Origin: an uncultured Pelagibacteraceae bacterium | GTDB taxonomy: Bacteria; Pseudomonadota; Alphaproteobacteria; Pelagibacterales; Pelagibacteraceae | Assembly (NCBI GenBank): GCA_902576375.1 | Contig: CACGUZ010000001.1 | Span: 248,001-312,000, forward strand | DNA length: 64,000 nt | Direction: 5' to 3' | Shown: positions 28,470 through 34,805 of the stretch, piece after piece | Numbering within the stretch: the stretch's first letter is position 1 | How the letters are laid out: the number at the start of each line of letters is the position of its first letter | Notes under the pieces: model-generated | Told to the model about the DNA's origin: nothing | Seen by the model: only the letters and a program-made list of their open reading frames with translations | Databases searched by the model: none | Translations under genes and position numbers: made by a program

Positions 28470-29845
28470 ATCATTTTTTTTGGATTAACGATCCTATCAT
28501 AATCTTTTTCATTTATTAATTTTGATTTAATTGCTTCGTGTTTTAATGTGGTGTTATTTTTTAGTGCTAACTTTGCAATTTTTGCACAATTATCATATCC
28601 AATATGTGGGGCTAGTGCTGTTACTAACATCAAAGAATTATCTAAATAACCTTTTATTTTGTTTTTATCAGCTTTTAATCCTTTTACACAATAAAGTGAG
28701 AAGTTTTTGATACTATCAGCTAATAAATTAATTGATTGCAAAATATTATGAGCAATTAAAGGCTTGAATACATTTAATTCAAAATGACCATGAGAACCGG
28801 CCATAGTAATTCCGTTATGATTTCCAATTACTTTAACGCAAACCATTGTAACAGCTTCTGATTGTGTAGGATTAACTTTTCCAGGCATAATTGAAGAACC
28901 TGGTTCGTTAGCTGGTAAGATTAATTCTCCGTAACCTGCTCTAGGTCCTGACCCTAAAAATCTTATATCATTAGCGATCTTCATTAAACTCACAGCAGTA
29001 GTATTTAATGTGCCTGAAAAATTAACAATCTCATCATGTGCTGCAAGAGCCTTAAATTTATTTTTTGTTGGTTTAAATGGCAGTTTTGTAATCTTTTTTA
29101 TTTCATTAATTATTTTTTTATCAAAATTTTTTCTGCTATTTATACCGGTGCCTACAGCTGTACCACCTTGTGCTAAAGAATAAATCTCTTTCAAAGCTTC
29201 ATTAATTCTTTTAGTACAATCTTCGATTTGTGATTGATAACCAGAGAATTCTTGACCCAAAGAAAGTGGAGTTGCATCTTGTAAATGAGTCCTTCCAATT
29301 TTGATAATATTTTTAAAACTAGATGTTTTTTTTTTAAGCTCTTTGTTTAGCAACTTAAGAGATGGCAAAAGTTTATTTTTTGTCTCAATCGCTATTGCAA
29401 TGTGCATTGCAGTCGGAAAAACATCATTTGTTGACTGAGATTTATTTACATGATCGTTTGGGTGCACTGGTTTTTTTGAACCTTTTTTACCTCTTAATAT
29501 CTCTATAGCTCTATTTGATATCACTTCATTTACATTCATATTAGTTTGTGTACCTGATCCTGTCTGCCAAACTTTTAATGGGAAATGTTCATCAAGTTTA
29601 CCTTTTATTATTTCATCTGATGCTATGATTATTGCTTTTGAAATTTTAGGTAAAATTTGCTTCTCTTTTTGATGTACTTTTGCAGCAGCTTTTTTAATTA
29701 TGGCAATAGACTTTATTAAGATTGGTCTAACTAAAAAGTCTCCTATATCAAAAAATTTTTTAGATCTTTGGGTAGAAGCTCCCCAATATTTATCATCAGG
29801 GACTTTAATTGAGCCTATACTGTCAAATTCTTTTCTAAATTTCAT
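28457..29845 (-). CDS. fumC: Class II fumarate hydratase FumC
   Basis: 462 aa from ATG at 29845. The frame is open upstream to 29905, but the extra 20 residues (cysteine and tyrosine rich) have no family counterpart, whereas [28 protein letters not shown] is the standard N-terminus. It converts fumarate to malate in the TCA cycle. The superfamily signature [15 protein letters not shown] is near residue 315, and [18 protein letters not shown] near 95. Divergent from the MazG-like gene with 53 bp between starts. Confidence 0.97.
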
Positions 29846-29898
29846 TAATAAATGATAATTATATATATAATAAAATCTAAATAACTTACAGGAGCAAA

Positions 29899-30270
29899 AT
29901 GACAAATTTTGACAAAGTTGGTATATTTATGAAAACTTTTGGTCAAGAAGTAAAAGATGAACCATCATTTAGTTCTGATAAAATTAATCAACTGAGAATA
30001 AGTTTGATAAATGAGGAACTGAATGAATTAATAGAGGCAATGGAAAATAAAGATTTATTAGAGGTTGCTGACGCTTTAACTGACTTATTATATGTTACTT
30101 ATGGAGCAGGACATGCTTTTGGCATAAACTTAGACAAGTGTTTTGCAGAAGTGCAAAATTCAAACATGAGTAAATTAGGAGAGGATGGTAAACCGATCTA
30201 TAATGAATATGGTAAGGTTATGAAAGGCCCTAATTACTTTAAGCCAGATTTGACTAAGTTTATCAAATAA
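29899..30270 (+). CDS. MazG/PRA-PH-superfamily nucleotide pyrophosphohydrolase
   Basis: 123 aa all-alpha protein. [31 protein letters not shown] (written here as two parts around the metal site EELNEL and DALTD) follows the MazG/HisE pattern ExxE ... ExxD with four acidic metal ligands. The tail [28 protein letters not shown] matches a known branch whose members hydrolyse nucleoside triphosphates; it is not HisE itself. Good ribosome site ACAGGAGC at 29889-29896. The ssrA-derived att core begins 17 bp after the stop, so this gene was probably the native neighbour of ssrA before the insertions. Confidence 0.75.
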
Positions 30271-30286
30271 ATATTTATGTTTGAGA

Positions 30287-30315
30287 GGGGCGTTCTGTTG
30301 CCAGGTGCCCCGAAC
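30287..30315. repeat. att-like core copy 1 (ssrA 3' fragment, outer junction)
   Basis: 29 bp identical to 32161-32189 and to 33557-33585 inside ssrA. It starts GGGGCGTTC and ends GCCCCGAAC. Left of it lies sequence unlike the other copies (presumably the original chromosome); right of it TTTGTTTCA is shared with copy 2, as expected of an element start. Confidence 0.9.
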
Positions 30316-30379
30316 TTTGTTTCAATAATCCTTATATTGCAACAATCAGCAATAATCAAATCACACAAATTATAGAATA

Positions 30380-30437
30380 ATGCCGACCAAATGCCGACCA
30401 AAAATCTGGTCGTCACAGGCTTCATGATTTGATAGCC
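30380..30437 (+). promoter_or_regulatory. E1 left-end array: tandem hexamers, inverted hexamer, hairpin
   Basis: ATGCCGACCAA occurs twice in tandem (30380-30390, 30391-30401), placing CCGACC at 30383 and 30394, 11 bp apart. After an 8-bp spacer the inverse GGTCGT lies at 30408-30413, then CACAG. A hairpin follows: AGGCT at 30417-30421 pairs with AGCCT at 30434-30438, with GATTTG in the loop. E2 has the same plan with different hexamers and stem. It could be protein-binding arm sites, an operator, or an RNA leader; I cannot tell which. Confidence 0.75.
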
Positions 30438-30444
30438 TTGGATT

Positions 30445-30468
30445 ATGAAAAAGCTTTTAAAATATTAA
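30445..30468 (+). other. Eight-codon ORF MKKLLKY before the DUF3764-like gene
   Basis: ATG at 30445 lies 32 bp after the TCACAG box, exactly where E2 starts its first secreted-protein gene (32308, also 32 bp after TCACAG). It reads MKKLLKY then TAA, resembling a signal-peptide start that has been cut off. TAATAAGGAGG joins its stop to the ribosome site of the next gene. It may be a remnant of a replaced first gene or a coupling leader peptide. Confidence 0.4.
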
Positions 30469-30481
30469 TAAGGAGGTTCAT

Positions 30482-30796
30482 ATGGGAATACTAGTTAAAG
30501 GTGAAATTACAATTACTAAAGGATTTAAAACTTGGAAAGAGATGGTTTATGCTCAGGATGGAAAATTAAAAGAACATGGAATAAAGTTTATTTTTGCAGG
30601 CACACAAAAAGATGACCCGACAAAACTTCATACAGTAATGCAATTTCCAAACATGGAAGCACTCCAAGCTTTTAGAGATGATAAGGAACTTACTGAGAAA
30701 AGAAAGGAAGCAGGAGCTGTTATAGAAAGTGCTGTAATGATACCAATTTCAGATGAGCATTTAACCAACTATCCGGATGCATACACAAATCATTAA
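30482..30796 (+). CDS. DUF3764-like / dimeric alpha-beta barrel small protein
   Basis: 104 aa, no signal peptide. ITKGFKTWKEMVYAQDGKLKEHGIKFIFAGTQKDDPTKL (residues ~12-50, given here as its key segments GFKTWKEM and GIKFIFAG) and VMQFPNMEALQAFRDDKELTE have the strand-helix-strand rhythm of ferredoxin-like dimeric barrels, and resemble DUF3764 proteins of marine bacteria as I recall them. The function is unknown. It has the strongest ribosome site of the element (AAGGAGG at 30470-30476). It abuts the next gene (stop TAA followed by ATG). Confidence 0.6.
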   Translation: MGILVKGEITITKGFKTWKEMVYAQDGKLKEHGIKFIFAGTQKDDPTKLHTVMQFPNMEALQAFRDDKELTEKRKEAGAVIESAVMIPISDEHLTNYPDAYTNH

Positions 30797-31231
30797 ATGA
30801 AAAAACTTTTAGGGATCGTGGTTCTGGGTTTGTTTTTAAGCATGAATGCTTATGCTAAAATTGTCAACAAAACTTTTCAATTTAACTGCAATAATGTGTT
30901 TGATAGTGAAACTAGAGCAATTGTAACAATTACTTTTGATGATAAGACTGGCGAAATTAAAAAGGGGAAAGCTACATTATTAAGAGGAGATAAAAGATCT
31001 GATTATGAAAATTTAATCTCAGATAGCTCTTCTATCGGTGGATTTGAGAACGATCTTTATAGCGCAACATTTATTGAAAAAAGTAAAACTCATATATGGG
31101 GATTTCAAATAGAAGGTTTCGACAAAACGAGTTATGAACTTTATAAATTTCAAGTTGGTGATTATAAAACCAAAAATCCTTATATTCTCACAGGGGATGC
31201 AACTGATCGTTTAAAGTGTATAATGTTATAG
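30797..31231 (+). CDS. Small secreted protein with two cysteines (E1 cargo)
   Basis: 144 aa, not recognised. A clear signal peptide MKKLLGIVVLGLFLSMNAYA ends at AYA-K. The mature part is rich in beta-strand patterns and has just two cysteines, one close to its start (QFNCNN) and one five residues from the end (RLKCIML), as in the other cargo proteins of E1 and E2. Likely periplasmic with one disulphide. It follows the DUF3764-like stop directly and is followed by another secreted protein after 3 bp. Confidence 0.7.
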   Translation: MKKLLGIVVLGLFLSMNAYAKIVNKTFQFNCNNVFDSETRAIVTITFDDKTGEIKKGKATLLRGDKRSDYENLISDSSSIGGFENDLYSATFIEKSKTHIWGFQIEGFDKTSYELYKFQVGDYKTKNPYILTGDATDRLKCIML

Positions 31232-31234
31232 ATT

Positions 31235-31654
31235 ATGAAAAAAATTTTAGGGATTATGTTTCTGATTTTAATTATAACATCTAATGCTTTTTCTGAAATA
31301 ATAACATTAAAATGTGATGGCAAATATGCCACAAGATATGCAGTAATTGATTTAGATAACAAAAAATTAGGATTTGAAAAATCAATGCCAAGAGATTTAA
31401 ATTGGGAAATTGTAAATGTATCTAATTATGAAATTGTAGCAGAAAAGTTATTTATGAGAAAATACACAGATGGCCATATTTATAAAAGCACAAATATATT
31501 AATTATCAATAGAATTAATGGACAAGTTACTGACGATAGGCGAGTTGAACAAATAAACAAAAATCCAGATGCAAATTACGATTCAAGTGGAATACCTGTA
31601 ACAGTAATACCCAAAGTTGTTTGTGAACCATTTAGTGGAGAAGCTAAATTCTAA
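31235..31654 (+). CDS. Small secreted protein with two cysteines (E1 cargo)
   Basis: 139 aa, not recognised. The signal peptide MKKILGIMFLILIITSNAFS is very similar to that of the preceding gene although the mature parts do not look alike. The mature protein starts EIITLKCDGKY and ends KVVCEPFSGEAKF, again with only two cysteines near the two ends. The ATG is preceded by ATAGATT; no good ribosome site, as for several genes here. Confidence 0.68.
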   Translation: MKKILGIMFLILIITSNAFSEIITLKCDGKYATRYAVIDLDNKKLGFEKSMPRDLNWEIVNVSNYEIVAEKLFMRKYTDGHIYKSTNILIINRINGQVTDDRRVEQINKNPDANYDSSGIPVTVIPKVVCEPFSGEAKF

Positions 31655-31714
31655 TATCTTTATTTAAACAAAATTAAGACCTAAAAAAAACAATCAATAG
31701 TGCCAATATTTATA

Positions 31715-32083
31715 ATGCGTTTATTAGTAGCTTTCTTATTAATGTGCTCGAACTCATTTGCTGATCAAGGTCTTAAAATCTCCTGCCTTAATATTTTGAC
31801 TGCAATTGGTGAAAAGCACGAACATGAAAATTTCACTTTAGACGTAATACATTTTGAATTCTTAGATAAAAAAAATAATAGCTTTAAAAAAATTCAAACT
31901 AAAGATCTCATAATTGGTGATAATTATTTCACAGCAAAATTAAATGATTATGAAATGACATTTCAGAATATGATTTTTAAAGATGATCAGAAAGAGAGAA
32001 TGATGATGAGTAAATATGATATAAAAAATCATAAATATACAGATCATTATTTTTGCGATTACTCATTAGCAGATATAAATTAA
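31715..32083 (+). CDS. Small secreted protein (E1 cargo)
   Basis: 122 aa from ATG at 31715; a GTG at 31700 in the same frame would add five residues but gives a poorer signal peptide. MRLLVAFLLMCSNSFA is a compact signal peptide. The mature part has two cysteines, in LKISCLN near its start and YFCDYS near the C-terminus, continuing the pattern of this region. Function unknown. The stop TAA overlaps the first base of the right-end hexamer array, so the array directly follows the coding region. Confidence 0.62.
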   Translation: MRLLVAFLLMCSNSFADQGLKISCLNILTAIGEKHEHENFTLDVIHFEFLDKKNNSFKKIQTKDLIIGDNYFTAKLNDYEMTFQNMIFKDDQKERMMMSKYDIKNHKYTDHYFCDYSLADIN

Positions 32084-32143
32084 TGCCGACCACAGGCCGA
32101 CTCACTCAGTTGTATTTTTTAAATAACGTTGATACTGCAAACT
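32083..32143. repeat. E1 right end: hexamer pair plus conserved end block
   Basis: CCGACC at 32086-32091 and CCGACT at 32097-32102 are 11 bp apart and repeat the hexamer of E1's left end. They are followed by a block running 32110-32143 that ends in TAACGTTGATACTGCAAACT (32124-32143), identical to 33521-33540 in E2. The second hexamer ends 58 bp before the core at 32161. Confidence 0.75.
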
Positions 32144-32160
32144 AAATTAACAAATGAGAA

Positions 32161-32189
32161 GGGGCGTTCTGTTGCCAGGTGCCCCGAAC
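32161..32189. repeat. att-like core copy 2 (junction between E1 and E2)
   Basis: Identical over 29 bp to copies 1 and 3. Its left flank matches that of copy 3 (element ends) and its right flank TTTGTTTCA (32190-32198) matches that of copy 1 (element starts), the arrangement expected at the junction of two tandem insertions. Confidence 0.9.
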
Positions 32190-32245
32190 TTTGTTTCATT
32201 ATAGCCAATTATTTTTCCAAAACCACGTAAATTTAATGTATCAGG

Positions 32246-32301
32246 ACGAGTAGAGTACGAGTGAAAATCGACTCGTCACAGATTATTAGATTTGGTAATC
32301 T
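32246..32301 (+). promoter_or_regulatory. E2 left-end array: tandem hexamers, inverted hexamer, hairpin
   Basis: ACGAGT at 32246-32251 and 32257-32262 (11 bp apart), 8-bp spacer GAAAATCG, exact inverse ACTCGT at 32271-32276, then CACAG. The hairpin AGATTA (32280-32285) with TAATCT (32296-32301) has loop TTAGATTTGG. Every distance equals that in E1 (11, 8, and 32 bp from TCACAG to the ATG), while hexamer and stem sequences differ. Confidence 0.75.
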
Positions 32302-32307
32302 CAGATT

Positions 32308-32553
32308 ATGAAAAAAATTTTTTTAATATTGTTTTTTTTTATTTTTGTTTCTCAATCGTTTGCAGATGAAATGACAATAAATGGTCTATTAAAACAGGGA
32401 TATAAAATTAAAGACGAAACAATTATTAAAAATGGTCCAGGAAATTTTGATCAAAAAATTATTACATTAATTAGTGGCAAAAACTATGCTGTATGCACTA
32501 TTCAAATTAGCGCTCTCCAGGGTCCAAAATTTCAAAAATGTATAAAACCATAA
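32308..32553 (+). CDS. Very small secreted protein (E2 cargo)
   Basis: 81 aa with signal peptide MKKIFLILFFFIFVSQSFA and a mature part of about 62 residues: EMTINGLLKQGYKIKDE, then a short beta-rich stretch with two cysteines (YAVCTI and FQKCIKP). Short proteins starting with 'adeMT...LL..GYK' and ending with a cysteine near the C-terminus are common among SAR11 hypothetical proteins as I know them. Function unknown; likely periplasmic. The ATG follows the E2 hairpin. Confidence 0.7.
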   Translation: MKKIFLILFFFIFVSQSFADEMTINGLLKQGYKIKDETIIKNGPGNFDQKIITLISGKNYAVCTIQISALQGPKFQKCIKP

Positions 32554-32556
32554 ATT

Positions 32557-33474
32557 ATGAAAAGAATTTTAAGTATAATATTTTTTATAATACCCTGGAT
32601 CTTTTTTACTTCAATTATTTCAGCTAAAGCAGAGCTTATAAAAGCTAATTGCTTGATAGATGAATTTTATCTTCAAGAGCAAAAAATTGATAAATCAGAA
32701 CAACAGGTTCTGGCCGGAAAAGTTATTAAGTTGGAAGTAGACACAAATAAAAAATTAATCTTTGATAAATCAGACTTGAAAAGAATTATTATATTAACTG
32801 GTATTCCTGAAGAGGGAATTAAATACGAAGGCACCTCAAGCATAACTTATCAAAATGAATTAAAAGTAATTGATCAAGAAAATGATAAAGAATTAAAATA
32901 TATTTATAATAATTCTATATTATTGGAGAATAATGAAATATCTCAATTAAATATTAAAATTGATCAAACAGGAATATCATTAAATAAATGGAAATTTTTT
33001 ATTAAATGTAGATCAGGTGAATATACCGATATTGAAAAAAAAATAGCTAGAAGAACTCTGCCCCCAGATAAATCATTAGTAAAACCAAAATATAAACTTG
33101 ATGAAAATGGAAAACCAATTCTCTTTCTTTTTGAAGCCCCACCTAAAGTAAATAAAATGCCTAAAAATTTTATTTTAGATGCAGACATTAGTTCAAACCC
33201 TCCCATTGAAGATATGATATATGAGCTTGAGATTAAGAATGCTGAGGATCTTTTAAATTATTATAAAGCAAAATTATTCGACAATAATAAAAGAGTTTCT
33301 CTAGAGCTTTCAAGGCAATTTATGACTTTTAAAAAAGGTGAGAGAATTTCGTATGAAAATATAAAAGATCTTGAAGAGAAAAAATTTTTTAGAATTCCTT
33401 TAAAGGATGATATGGAAAGCCATATGCTAAAGTTTTATAAGAAAGAATATTACAAAGAAAAAAAGAAATTATAG
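32557..33474 (+). CDS. Secreted protein of unknown function (E2 cargo)
   Basis: 305 aa. Signal peptide to about residue 27 (FFTSIISAKA). The first ~150 residues form a beta-rich domain with cysteines in IKANCLIDE and FIKCRSGEY. The second half (KPKYKLDENGKPILFLFEAPPKVNK... to the lysine-rich end) looks mainly helical and charged. Not recognised. It starts 3 bp after the previous stop. The C-terminal lysine run YKEKKKL ends 9 bp before the right-end hexamers. Confidence 0.65.
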   Translation: MKRILSIIFFIIPWIFFTSIISAKAELIKANCLIDEFYLQEQKIDKSEQQVLAGKVIKLEVDTNKKLIFDKSDLKRIIILTGIPEEGIKYEGTSSITYQNELKVIDQENDKELKYIYNNSILLENNEISQLNIKIDQTGISLNKWKFFIKCRSGEYTDIEKKIARRTLPPDKSLVKPKYKLDENGKPILFLFEAPPKVNKMPKNFILDADISSNPPIEDMIYELEIKNAEDLLNYYKAKLFDNNKRVSLELSRQFMTFKKGERISYENIKDLEEKKFFRIPLKDDMESHMLKFYKKEYYKEKKKL

Positions 33475-33482
33475 TTTTCATG

Positions 33483-33540
33483 ACGAGTACAGGACGAGTC
33501 ATTAGGTTGTATTTTTAAAATAACGTTGATACTGCAAACT
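33483..33540. repeat. E2 right end: hexamer pair plus conserved end block
   Basis: ACGAGT at 33483-33488 and 33494-33499 (11 bp apart, separated by ACAGG as in E1) repeat the E2 left-end hexamer. The shared block follows from 33507 and ends TAACGTTGATACTGCAAACT at 33521-33540. The second hexamer ends 57 bp before the core at 33557. Confidence 0.75.
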
Positions 33541-33556
33541 TTTTTAATAAAAGGAA

Positions 33557-33585
33557 GGGGCGTTCTGTTGCCAGGTGCCCCGAAC
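33557..33585 (-). repeat. att-like core copy 3 = native pseudoknot at the ssrA 3' end
   Basis: Third identical 29-bp copy; this one continues into the rest of ssrA on its right. Read on the minus strand it can fold as an H-type pseudoknot: GTTC pairs with GAAC and GGGGC with GCCCC in interleaved order, joined by ACCTGGCAACA. Confidence 0.88.
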
Positions 33586-33816
33586 CCCGTTTACTTAATT
33601 AACAAAGTTAATTAAGCAGCAAGTGCGTAACTTTCGTTAGCAATTATAAAATAGCCCTTTTCGGAGGAACAATTCCGAACGAAAGAATAGCTTTTAGTCA
33701 CTCGTCGAATCTAGTTCACCCCCATAAGTTGTAAATGGTGGAGGTGGTGGGTACTGCCCCCACGTCCGCAATGGTTATTACGAAATTCGTTTATCGTCAT
33801 AGTTGGAAATCCAACT
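33557..33816 (-). ncRNA. ssrA: Permuted two-piece tmRNA (ssrA), tag ANESYALAA
   Basis: tmRNA rescues stalled ribosomes and tags their products for proteolysis. Read on the minus strand, the acceptor piece comes first: hairpin at 33801-33816, then T arm 33763-33747 (stem GTGGG/CCCAC, loop GGCAGTA), acceptor strand CACCTCC, A, and encoded CCA ending at 33736. After 12 nt the coding piece begins at 33723 with GGGGGTG, which pairs with CACCTCC over 7 bp; the third pair is G-U, the alanine identity element. AGATTCGACGAG follows, then pseudoknot 1 (TTCGGA/TCCGAA) and the tag codons 33641-33615, giving ANESYALAA with TAA at 33614-33612. The stop lies within the hairpin CTTAATTAAC/GTTAATTAAG, and the 3' pseudoknot ends the gene. 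The permutation is the alphaproteobacterial type. Confidence 0.95.
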
Positions 33817-33821
33817 TTATT

Positions 33822-33849
33822 AATATAAAAGGAAATGCAAGAGATTCAA
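33822..33849 (-). promoter_or_regulatory. Putative ssrA promoter
   Basis: On the minus strand TTGAAT (33849-33844) is followed after 16 bp by TATATT (33827-33822). The predicted start near 33815 is exactly at the first hairpin of the acceptor piece. It lies in the gap between ssrA and thyX. Confidence 0.5.
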
Positions 33850-33857
33850 TAACATTC

Positions 33858-34805
33858 ATGAAATTAACAAAAGAACAACAAGAAGATATTAAAAATCAAC
33901 AAACACAAAGCAATTCAACAAAAAGAGTAACTTCGCCTGAATTAGAAAAAATTCTTTATGAGGCTTTTCCTGCTCTTGATCATGGTTTTGTGAGAGTTGT
34001 TGACTATATGGGAGATGATACCTCAATCGTACAATCAGCTAGGGTTTCTTATGGTAAAGGTACCAAAAAAGTTTCTACAGATGCAGGGTTAATTAAATAC
34101 TTAATGCGCCATTGGCATAGTACACCATTCGAGATGTGTGAAATAAAATATCACATCAAACTGCCAATTTTTATTGCTCGTCAATGGATTAGACATAGAA
34201 CAGCTAATGTGAATGAATATTCAGCTAGATACTCGATTTTAGATAAAGAATTTTATTTGCCATCGAAACAAAATCTTGCAGCTCAATCAACATCTAATAG
34301 ACAAGGTAGAGGAGACGTCCTCGAAGGAGAACAGGCAAATGAAGTTTTGAAGCTTTTAAAAGATGATGCAGAAAGAACATATGCAAATTATGAAATGATG
34401 CTCAACGAAAAATATAATGGATCTACAATTGACGAAAATAAAAAAGGGTTAGCTAGAGAGCTTGCAAGAATGAACTTAACATTAAACACTTACACCCAAT
34501 GGTATTGGAAAACAGATTTGTTAAATCTTATGAATTTTTTAAGATTAAGAGCAGATCATCATGCACAATATGAGATTAGAGTATATGCAGATATTATGTT
34601 GGATACATTAAAAAGATGGGTTCCAATAACATATGAGGCTTTCATGGATTATAGAGTTGGCGGGACTGAAGTTTCAGCTAAAGGAAAAGTAATCATTCAA
34701 AAACTCATGAAGGGTGAAAACATTTCTATGGAAGATTCTGGACTATCCAAAAGAGAATGGAATGAATTAATGGAAGCTTTTGATCTTAAAGATAAATTGA
34801 TTTAA
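33858..34805 (+). CDS. thyX: FAD-dependent thymidylate synthase ThyX
   Basis: 315 aa from ATG at 33858. The frame is open upstream to 33735, but that extension would be translated from the tmRNA acceptor piece, so it is not coding. ThyX makes dTMP from dUMP using FAD and methylene-tetrahydrofolate. The signature [13 protein letters not shown] (RHRxxxxNExSxR) is near residue 115, and [12 protein letters not shown] near 240 completes the active site. It overlaps the convergent mrp gene by 20 bp. Confidence 0.96.

Follow-up and report, generated by a model that had tools for sequence, protein, structure and literature searches.

We analysed a 64,000-nt stretch of the 1.17 Mb genome of an uncultured Pelagibacteraceae bacterium (assembly GCA_902576375.1, contig CACGUZ010000001.1, positions 248,001 to 312,000; hereafter the window, whose own coordinates are used throughout), in which two small elements, named E1 and E2, lie at the gene for transfer-messenger RNA (tmRNA). 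The att core GGGGCGTTCTGTTGCCAGGTGCCCC, which is the 3' end of the tmRNA gene, is present three times, with starts at 30287, 32161, and 33557. Because the tmRNA 3' end is repeated at these three places, we read E1 and E2 as two tandem elements. By score, the two outer copies (30287 and 32161) are partial tmRNA matches. The tandem is flanked by thyX (33735-34805, Pfam Thy1) and by a phosphoribosyl-ATP-pyrophosphohydrolase/MazG-like gene (29899-30270). In HTCC1062, thyX and COG4696 are listed as the immediate neighbours of the tmRNA gene in Table 1 of PMC2704228, and this arrangement looks like an empty site. The main features of the locus are as follows.

30287-30311, plus strand: att copy 1, the displaced tmRNA 3' end at the outer end of E1; direct repeat D1, weak alpha_tmRNA match of 29.7 bits
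30287-32160, plus strand: element E1, 1874 bp, four open reading frames (ORFs), without a recombinase
32161-32185, plus strand: att copy 2, at the E1/E2 junction; direct repeat D1, weak alpha_tmRNA match of 27.4 bits
32161-33556, plus strand: element E2, 1396 bp, two ORFs, without a recombinase
33557-33581, plus strand: att copy 3, the functional tmRNA 3' end at the inner end of E2; direct repeat D1, within the tmRNA gene
33553-33853, minus strand: permuted alphaproteobacterial tmRNA gene (Rfam RF01849, 220 bits), whose 3' end is the integration target
33521-33831, minus strand: the tmRNA as predicted by ARAGORN

Arm-like sites and the agreement between element ends

Both ends of E1 and E2 carry paired short repeats, and the left ends carry a third, inverted copy. 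All of them were read directly in the sequence.

30382-30399, plus strand: E1 left arm-like sites, GCCGACC twice, 11 bp apart, a repeat spacing found family-wide
30408-30415, minus strand: E1 third, inverted arm-like site GGTCGTCA, at the same place in relatives
32085-32102, plus strand: E1 right arm-like sites, GCCGACC and GCCGACT, 11 bp apart; direct repeat D9
32245-32262, plus strand: E2 left arm-like sites, GACGAGT and TACGAGT, 11 bp apart
32271-32277, minus strand: E2 third, inverted arm-like site, ACTCGTC
33482-33499, plus strand: E2 right arm-like sites, GACGAGT twice, 11 bp apart

The att sequence was found in 292 of 397 family genomes at no more than 2 mismatches, many of them with 2-4 copies. 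Among the 48 stretches matched by the exact pattern, 44 belong to Pelagibacteraceae or Pelagibacterales and four to unrelated bacteria, and SAR11 single-cell genomes are the near relatives by this pattern. After removal of intervals longer than 12 kb and of near-duplicates, the catalogue of fetched relatives holds 127 distinct att-to-att intervals of 0.1-4.7 kb. In many of these, each end contains, about 56-82 bp inward, a pair of 7-8 bp sites with 11-bp spacing. For the tests on the ends, the 11 intervals shorter than 450 nt (core copies included) were left out, and in the remaining 116 the perfect 7-mer direct repeats show a sharp peak at 11 bp (60 left ends and 49 right ends). The distance of the sites from the core is 56-73 bp on the left and mostly 63-82 bp on the right.

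The sequence of the sites differs from element to element (GCCGACC in E1, GACGAGT in E2, and TGTGCCA, ATCCCGT, AGTGCGG, TGAGTCC, and others in relatives) and agrees between the two ends of one element. The best 9-mer match between an element's own two ends is 8.41, compared with 7.88 ± 0.05 for permuted ends, a value reached by none of 2000 permutations. Pairs at 11 bp occur at both ends of 36 of the 127 intervals, and 26 of these 36 elements with a clean pair at both ends share a 5-mer between them (permutations: mean 4.1, maximum 11, n = 5000). When one arm pair was searched in 349 genomes, it gave seven matches in four genomes, all seven adjoining an att copy.

In the attP of lambda-type integrases, the core is flanked by arm-type sites. 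The elements described here have a repeat of an RNA-gene 3' end at both ends, as tyrosine-integrase att sites do, and arm-type sites, recognised by sequence only, on both sides of the core. Judged in this way, the 11-bp site pairs around the tmRNA core have the anatomy of integrase arm sites, and since they would flank the core on both sides in an excised circle, they would give the layout of an attP.

The first-pass annotation of this DNA had treated the same sites as hexamer arrays that can form, with an inverted copy, a second hairpin. The inverted copy is present, and in E1 the site GGTCGTCA is the source both of that hairpin and of the start of the TCACAG box; however, its covariation extends to the direct repeats and to the far end of the element. 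The agreement between hexamer and inverted copy thus belongs to a broader pattern for which pairing offers no explanation, and because the site pairs have integrase-arm anatomy, an RNA fold is not needed to account for the arrays. The hexamer covariation is more likely due to a DNA-binding protein of changing specificity than to base pairing.

Two further conserved sequences were seen at the ends. The right ends share a block, GTTGTATTTTTnAAATAACGTTGATA, between the arm-like sites and the core (for example, at 32110-32135 and 33506-33530 of the window), which we take to be somewhat IHF-site-like. The left ends of a second class (class B; those of E1 and E2 belong to class A) carry, about 10 bp inward from the left core, the conserved palindrome ATTATTCGCGAATAAT (for example, L038 3070). 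Some att copies lie away from the tmRNA gene, or occur in the same genome at two widely separated places (L293/L297 in G645, L070/L071 in G051, and L038/L039 in G083), possibly as secondary integration sites. Four intervals (L002, L027, L071, and L078) contain a sole gene, about 68 aa long and on the opposite strand, which ends close to an att copy; they have no visible arm-like sites and are perhaps a second kind of cassette.

The promoter-like box and the overlapping dyad

Downstream of the left arm-like sites, each element has an inverted repeat that overlaps a promoter-like box.

30417-30438, plus strand: E1 dyad AGGCTT-N10-TAGCCT, five of six pairs
30430-30438, plus strand: E1 extended -10-like box TGATAGCCT, 6 nt before the ATG at 30445, at the class-wide position
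32280-32301, plus strand: E2 dyad AGATTA-N10-TAATCT, six of six pairs
32293-32301, plus strand: E2 extended -10-like box TGGTAATCT, 6 nt before the ATG at 32308, at the class-wide position

This region had been annotated as a covarying hairpin with a constant GATTTG loop at a fixed distance from the first ATG, and its elements hold as placed. The inverted repeats are AGGCT (30417-30421) with AGCCT (30434-30438) in E1 and AGATTA (32280-32285) with TAATCT (32296-32301) in E2; GATTTG is present in both (30426-30431 and 32289-32294); TCACAG begins 32 bp before the ATG in both (30413 to 30445 and 32276 to 32308); and relatives likewise have an inverted repeat whose centre is constant and whose distance to the first ATG is fixed. 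The ATG is the start of the first cargo gene in E2, as had been proposed, but in E1 the ATG at 30445 opens only the frame MKKLLKY, followed by a stop, and the first real ORF begins at 30482.

TTTGnTAnnnT is an extended -10-like box that lies about 6 nt before the ATG (5-8 nt across members), and the constant GATTTG forms its upstream part. The place of TGnTAnnnT is fixed in each class downstream of the left arm-like sites, at 88 after the core in most of class B and at 107 or 118 in class A. Counted without viral contigs and the four loci from unrelated bacteria, TGnTAnnnT starts 14-17 nt before the ATG in 32 of 97 first cassette genes, compared with 14 of 445 other genes and one of 445 shuffled upstream sequences. 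The spacing would fit a transcript that starts at the ATG, i.e., a leaderless message, and a start at or near the ATG would leave the hairpin outside the mRNA. GATTTG is best read as promoter sequence, not as a loop.

The class A consensus of the dyad, RGGTTA-N10-TAAYCT, overlaps the -10-like box. We examined it in 30 of 90 deduplicated left ends, namely those with the box at the fixed place and a distinct 22-mer; L043, L127, and L146, whose start resembles that of class B more than that of class A, were kept among the 30. The named register is paired in 67.8% of cells, compared with 53.3, 32.8, 33.3, 46.0, 36.7, and 24.4% in registers slid by -3, -2, -1, +1, +2, and +3. When the halves were permuted between members, P was 0.0005 for all 30 and 0.0021 without E1 and E2. 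The signal lies mostly in the second and third pairs; all six pairs are formed in only two of the 30 members, and five or more in 10. The dyad symmetry in class A is real. In class B, the same register gives 2.11 of six pairs, within the range of the other registers (1.63-2.98), and hence there is no dyad in class B.

The search for a mobilising integrase and the cassette cargo

A Pfam scan of E1 and E2 gave no match to a tyrosine recombinase. The single PF00589 match in the whole genome is a divergent Xer-like protein, with 75 bits against an XerD cut-off of 329.6. The 40 array genomes gave 38 PF00589 matches, mostly an Xer-like protein of about 325 aa, and two of them score clearly better. 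An att-like core was found in none of the 11 stretches examined around non-Xer integrases, eight of which have a tRNA gene nearby, and no PF00589 match lay beside the tmRNA att in the loci checked, so that no cognate integrase came to light there.

Queries with the att 23-mer and 18-mer found no attP in viral contigs and retrieved phage-borne tmRNA genes instead; in the 18-mer scan, 11 of 12 contigs carry a tmRNA gene and the twelfth (L258) does not. The contigs with their own permuted tmRNA gene (L052-L059, L256, L257, and L259) have an 18-base 3'-end stretch (23-base in L052-L059) in common with the SAR11 tmRNA gene. Among the viral contigs, the class A left-end pattern had one match, and the class B left-end and right-end patterns had none; the sole class A match lies in a contig stretch without att. 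The arm pair ATCCCGTAC had no match in viral contigs, and two looser arm patterns found 2 and 31 stretches with a G+C fraction of 0.41-0.64, none with an att-like core. Against INPHARED phages, a 45-base att query gave short, weak matches only. The mobilising enzyme is thus a prediction, and the proposed arm sites are an anatomical reading.

The cargo of E1 and E2 comprises one DUF3764 protein and otherwise small proteins without a clear family. The following frames were annotated.

30445-30468, plus strand: E1 seven-codon frame MKKLLKY; an AAGGAGG site and then the first real ORF (30482) lie downstream, an arrangement that recurs in other loci
30482-30796, plus strand: E1 cargo 1, DUF3764/DUF1330-like (Pfam E 2.9e-07)
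30797-31231, plus strand: E1 cargo 2, small secreted-type protein with the shared start MKKLLGIVVLG
32308-32553, plus strand: E2 first cargo, 81 aa, starting at the ATG downstream of the -10-like box
32557-33474, plus strand: E2 second cargo, 305 aa, no Pfam match

The 180 forward-strand ORFs of at least 80 aa in the intervals fall into 151 loose clusters. A Pfam search of 20 large ORFs found several nuclease-type or defence-like proteins (MrcB_N/NOV_C, HNH, GIY-YIG, SRA, PD-(D/E)XK, and NucS), and a PADLOC scan of 10 proteins gave matches to the PD-T4-1, TmtA, and MzaA models; an anti-phage function of some cassette cargo is possible on these matches. No recombinase was seen among the cargo proteins examined.

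A near-constant 32-bp stretch (window 30797-30828) encodes the signal-peptide start MKKLLGIVVLG, which heads unrelated mature proteins. At no more than 6 mismatches it occurs at 31 places in 27 of the 127 intervals, and at no more than 3 mismatches it is present as a single copy in the genome analysed, in E1. It looks like a reusable secretion module on cassette cargo. The seven-codon MKKLLKY frame, with its Shine-Dalgarno-like site and second gene (window 30445-30481), is common to several elements (L133, L181, and L222) and may represent either a leader peptide for translational coupling or the remnant of a gene that was replaced.

Readings of the left end and comparison with known systems

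We consider it fairly probable that the feature forms the left end of a small mobile cassette that has no integrase and lies at the tmRNA gene of SAR11, with arm-like sites, a leaderless promoter, and an operator-like dyad. The order from the core would be att core, AT-rich spacer, two direct arm-like sites, a third inverted site, and a built-in promoter, of which the extended -10-like box would be a real promoter giving a leaderless message. A tyrosine integrase supplied in trans, probably from a phage or a satellite, would bind the arm-like sites through its N-terminal domain, and these sites would form an attP with the core in the excised circle. The dyad would be the site of a protein, either a regulator or an accessory factor of recombination, and would be neither an RNA leader nor a single-strand DNA hairpin.

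Several observations weigh against this interpretation. No tmRNA-targeting integrase was found in the array genomes or viral contigs searched, which leaves anatomy to carry the arm-site reading, and no regulator binding the dyad was identified. In 67 of the 127 intervals, the left end lacks a perfect 7-mer repeat with 11-bp spacing. In E1 and E2, the -10 hexamers agree with TATAAT at only three of six places, and a consensus scan makes no call; in addition, 72 of 133 left-end candidates, a set that includes other kinds of end, have no TGnTAnnnT box at the examined place.

A wider proposal, which we put forward only tentatively, is that the SAR11 tmRNA gene might be a shared docking site for promoter-bearing, recombinase-less cassettes. 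The end-matched arm code, with many variants over one invariant core, would address different helper integrases of phages or satellites, and the dyad would be the helper's on/off point for cargo expression on entry.

Taken alone, the dyad part of the cassette interpretation has a little under an even chance: a dimeric repressor or activator on half-sites 16 bp apart, covering the -10-like box. The consensus is symmetric and conserved where it overlaps the box, and its symmetry is better kept than strict complementarity, as in protein sites, but no regulator was recognised in E1 or E2, the half-sites vary, and class B has no dyad. An operator-like or accessory-protein site over the promoter is nevertheless the most likely reading of the dyad, and likelier than an RNA or single-strand DNA hairpin.

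It is rather unlikely that the iterons are helper-phage replication-initiator or packaging (pac/cos) sites instead of integrase arms. Such sites can also carry short direct iterons with element-specific sequence, and satellites copy helper sites; however, the iterons here lie on both sides of the att core, 56-82 bp off and with 11-bp spacing, as in the attP layout of a circle, and the ATCCCGTAC pair, the class B left end, and the right-end block are unmatched in viral contigs.

Coincidence, meaning an inverted repeat that arose by chance within an AT-rich promoter in two related ends, is similarly improbable. The scarcity of perfect dyads among the 30 members speaks for it, as does the behaviour of covariation. 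The cells changed on both sides number 13 against 7.1 expected (reached by 2 of 500 shuffles), and 4 of 500 shuffles reach the cell-based covariation score; but the two measures described as least affected by relatedness, pairs with double-sided change (3 against 2.6 expected) and further pair types (10 against 8.5 expected), are reached by 342 and 112 of 500 shuffles, respectively. Covariation of the dyad is therefore not established. Against coincidence stands the register-specific excess, which holds against slid registers and without E1 and E2.

The same figures bear on the argument that three compensatory pairs between E1 and E2 mean that the fold matters. Two such pairs stand (G-C/A-T and C-G/T-A), in one register, whereas the sixth is T.T in E1 against A-T in E2, a gain of pairing. 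The conclusion is not supported, given the overlap with the box, the non-significant relatedness-robust measures, and the hexamers, which covary as direct repeats within each end and between the two ends of an element. A hairpin in the RNA leader of the first cargo gene, as a cis-regulatory RNA or a switch with the hexamer hairpin as alternative partner, is very unlikely. Both stretches do fold modestly better as single strands than their shuffles (z of -2.66 and -2.86 as DNA, -2.40 and -3.51 as RNA), and both the pairing above slid registers and the cell-based score are in its favour. Nonetheless, the sequence of the loop and 3' stem is that of the -10-like box, 6 nt upstream of the ATG, so that a transcript would begin past the hairpin; class B lacks the dyad, yet 23 of 36 left ends there keep a TGnTAnnnT box; the covariation of the hexamers takes in direct repeats and both ends of an element; and no Rfam family matched the hairpin at the gathering threshold or at E<=1 in the window or in 29700-34000. 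The Rfam matches in these scans were tmRNA, RNase P, and a chance snoRNA only. No evidence of switching or of a single-strand stage was found.

A single-strand DNA hairpin for recombination or replication, as in integron attC or IS200/IS605 ends, is the least probable reading: it would suit a dyad that adjoins recombination sites in a mobile element, a DNA fold z of about -2.7, and cassette arrays without integrase that resemble CALIN arrays, but the repeated core, the necessary place of crossover, is about 100 bp away, and the dyad is confined to one end, falls short of full pairing in 28 of 30 members, and is missing in class B.

To our knowledge, few mobile elements have been described in SAR11. 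A tmRNA cassette family across many single-cell genomes, with a readable end code, offers a route to the missing helper integrase, which would be the one whose arm-binding domain fits the code, and this family, with the matching address code at its two ends, is more interesting than the supposed RNA hairpin. The case also calls for caution, since a covarying hexamer can be mistaken for RNA structure when changing protein specificity is the likelier cause.

The additive flexible genomic islands with tRNA 3'-end repeats, described in passages of PMC10872708 (Ca. Methylopumilus) and PMC7771536 (Ca. Actinomarinales), likewise consist of small cassettes that accumulate side by side at an RNA gene, bordered by repeats of its end and highly variable in content, and the tandem of E1 and E2 with its RNA-gene-end repeats agrees with them. 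In contrast, the target here is tmRNA and the host Pelagibacteraceae, and the arm-like pairs, end-matching code, and built-in promoter have no counterpart in those passages. CALIN arrays, characterised in part of PMC11389934 as integron cassettes without an integrase, are also mobile cassette arrays presumed to be mobilised in trans. However, their junctions are attC, whereas those described here are copies of the tmRNA 3' end, and each cassette here has its own promoter and arm-like sites; no integron integrase was found in the genome analysed, whose sole PF00589 match is Xer-like.

Tycheposons, VEIMEs, and PICMIs resemble the cassettes as marine integrative elements, likely helper-dependent and in some cases with defence cargo, according to sections of PMC10872708, PMC10803314, and PMC11389934. 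In those sections, tycheposons span 4-200 kb with a tyrosine recombinase (PMC10872708), and PICMIs carry int, alpA, and primase genes (PMC11389934). The intervals here are 0.1-4.7 kb with no recombinase seen in the cargo examined, and E1 (1.9 kb) and E2 (1.4 kb) are both smaller than tycheposons and without a recombinase.

A full-text search, which covered mostly papers outside subscription, found nothing on these tmRNA cassettes. Cassettes stacked at RNA genes with gene-end repeats are already known from streamlined aquatic bacteria, and integrase-less arrays from CALINs, as far as the cited passages go. In the literature searched, we found no description of an arm code that matches between the ends while the tmRNA core stays invariant, or of the built-in, putatively leaderless promoter with its dyad. 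In the lambda-type attP, too, short direct sites spaced by about one helical turn lie on either side of the core, but in the present system, known from sequence, the arms vary by element over one and the same core.

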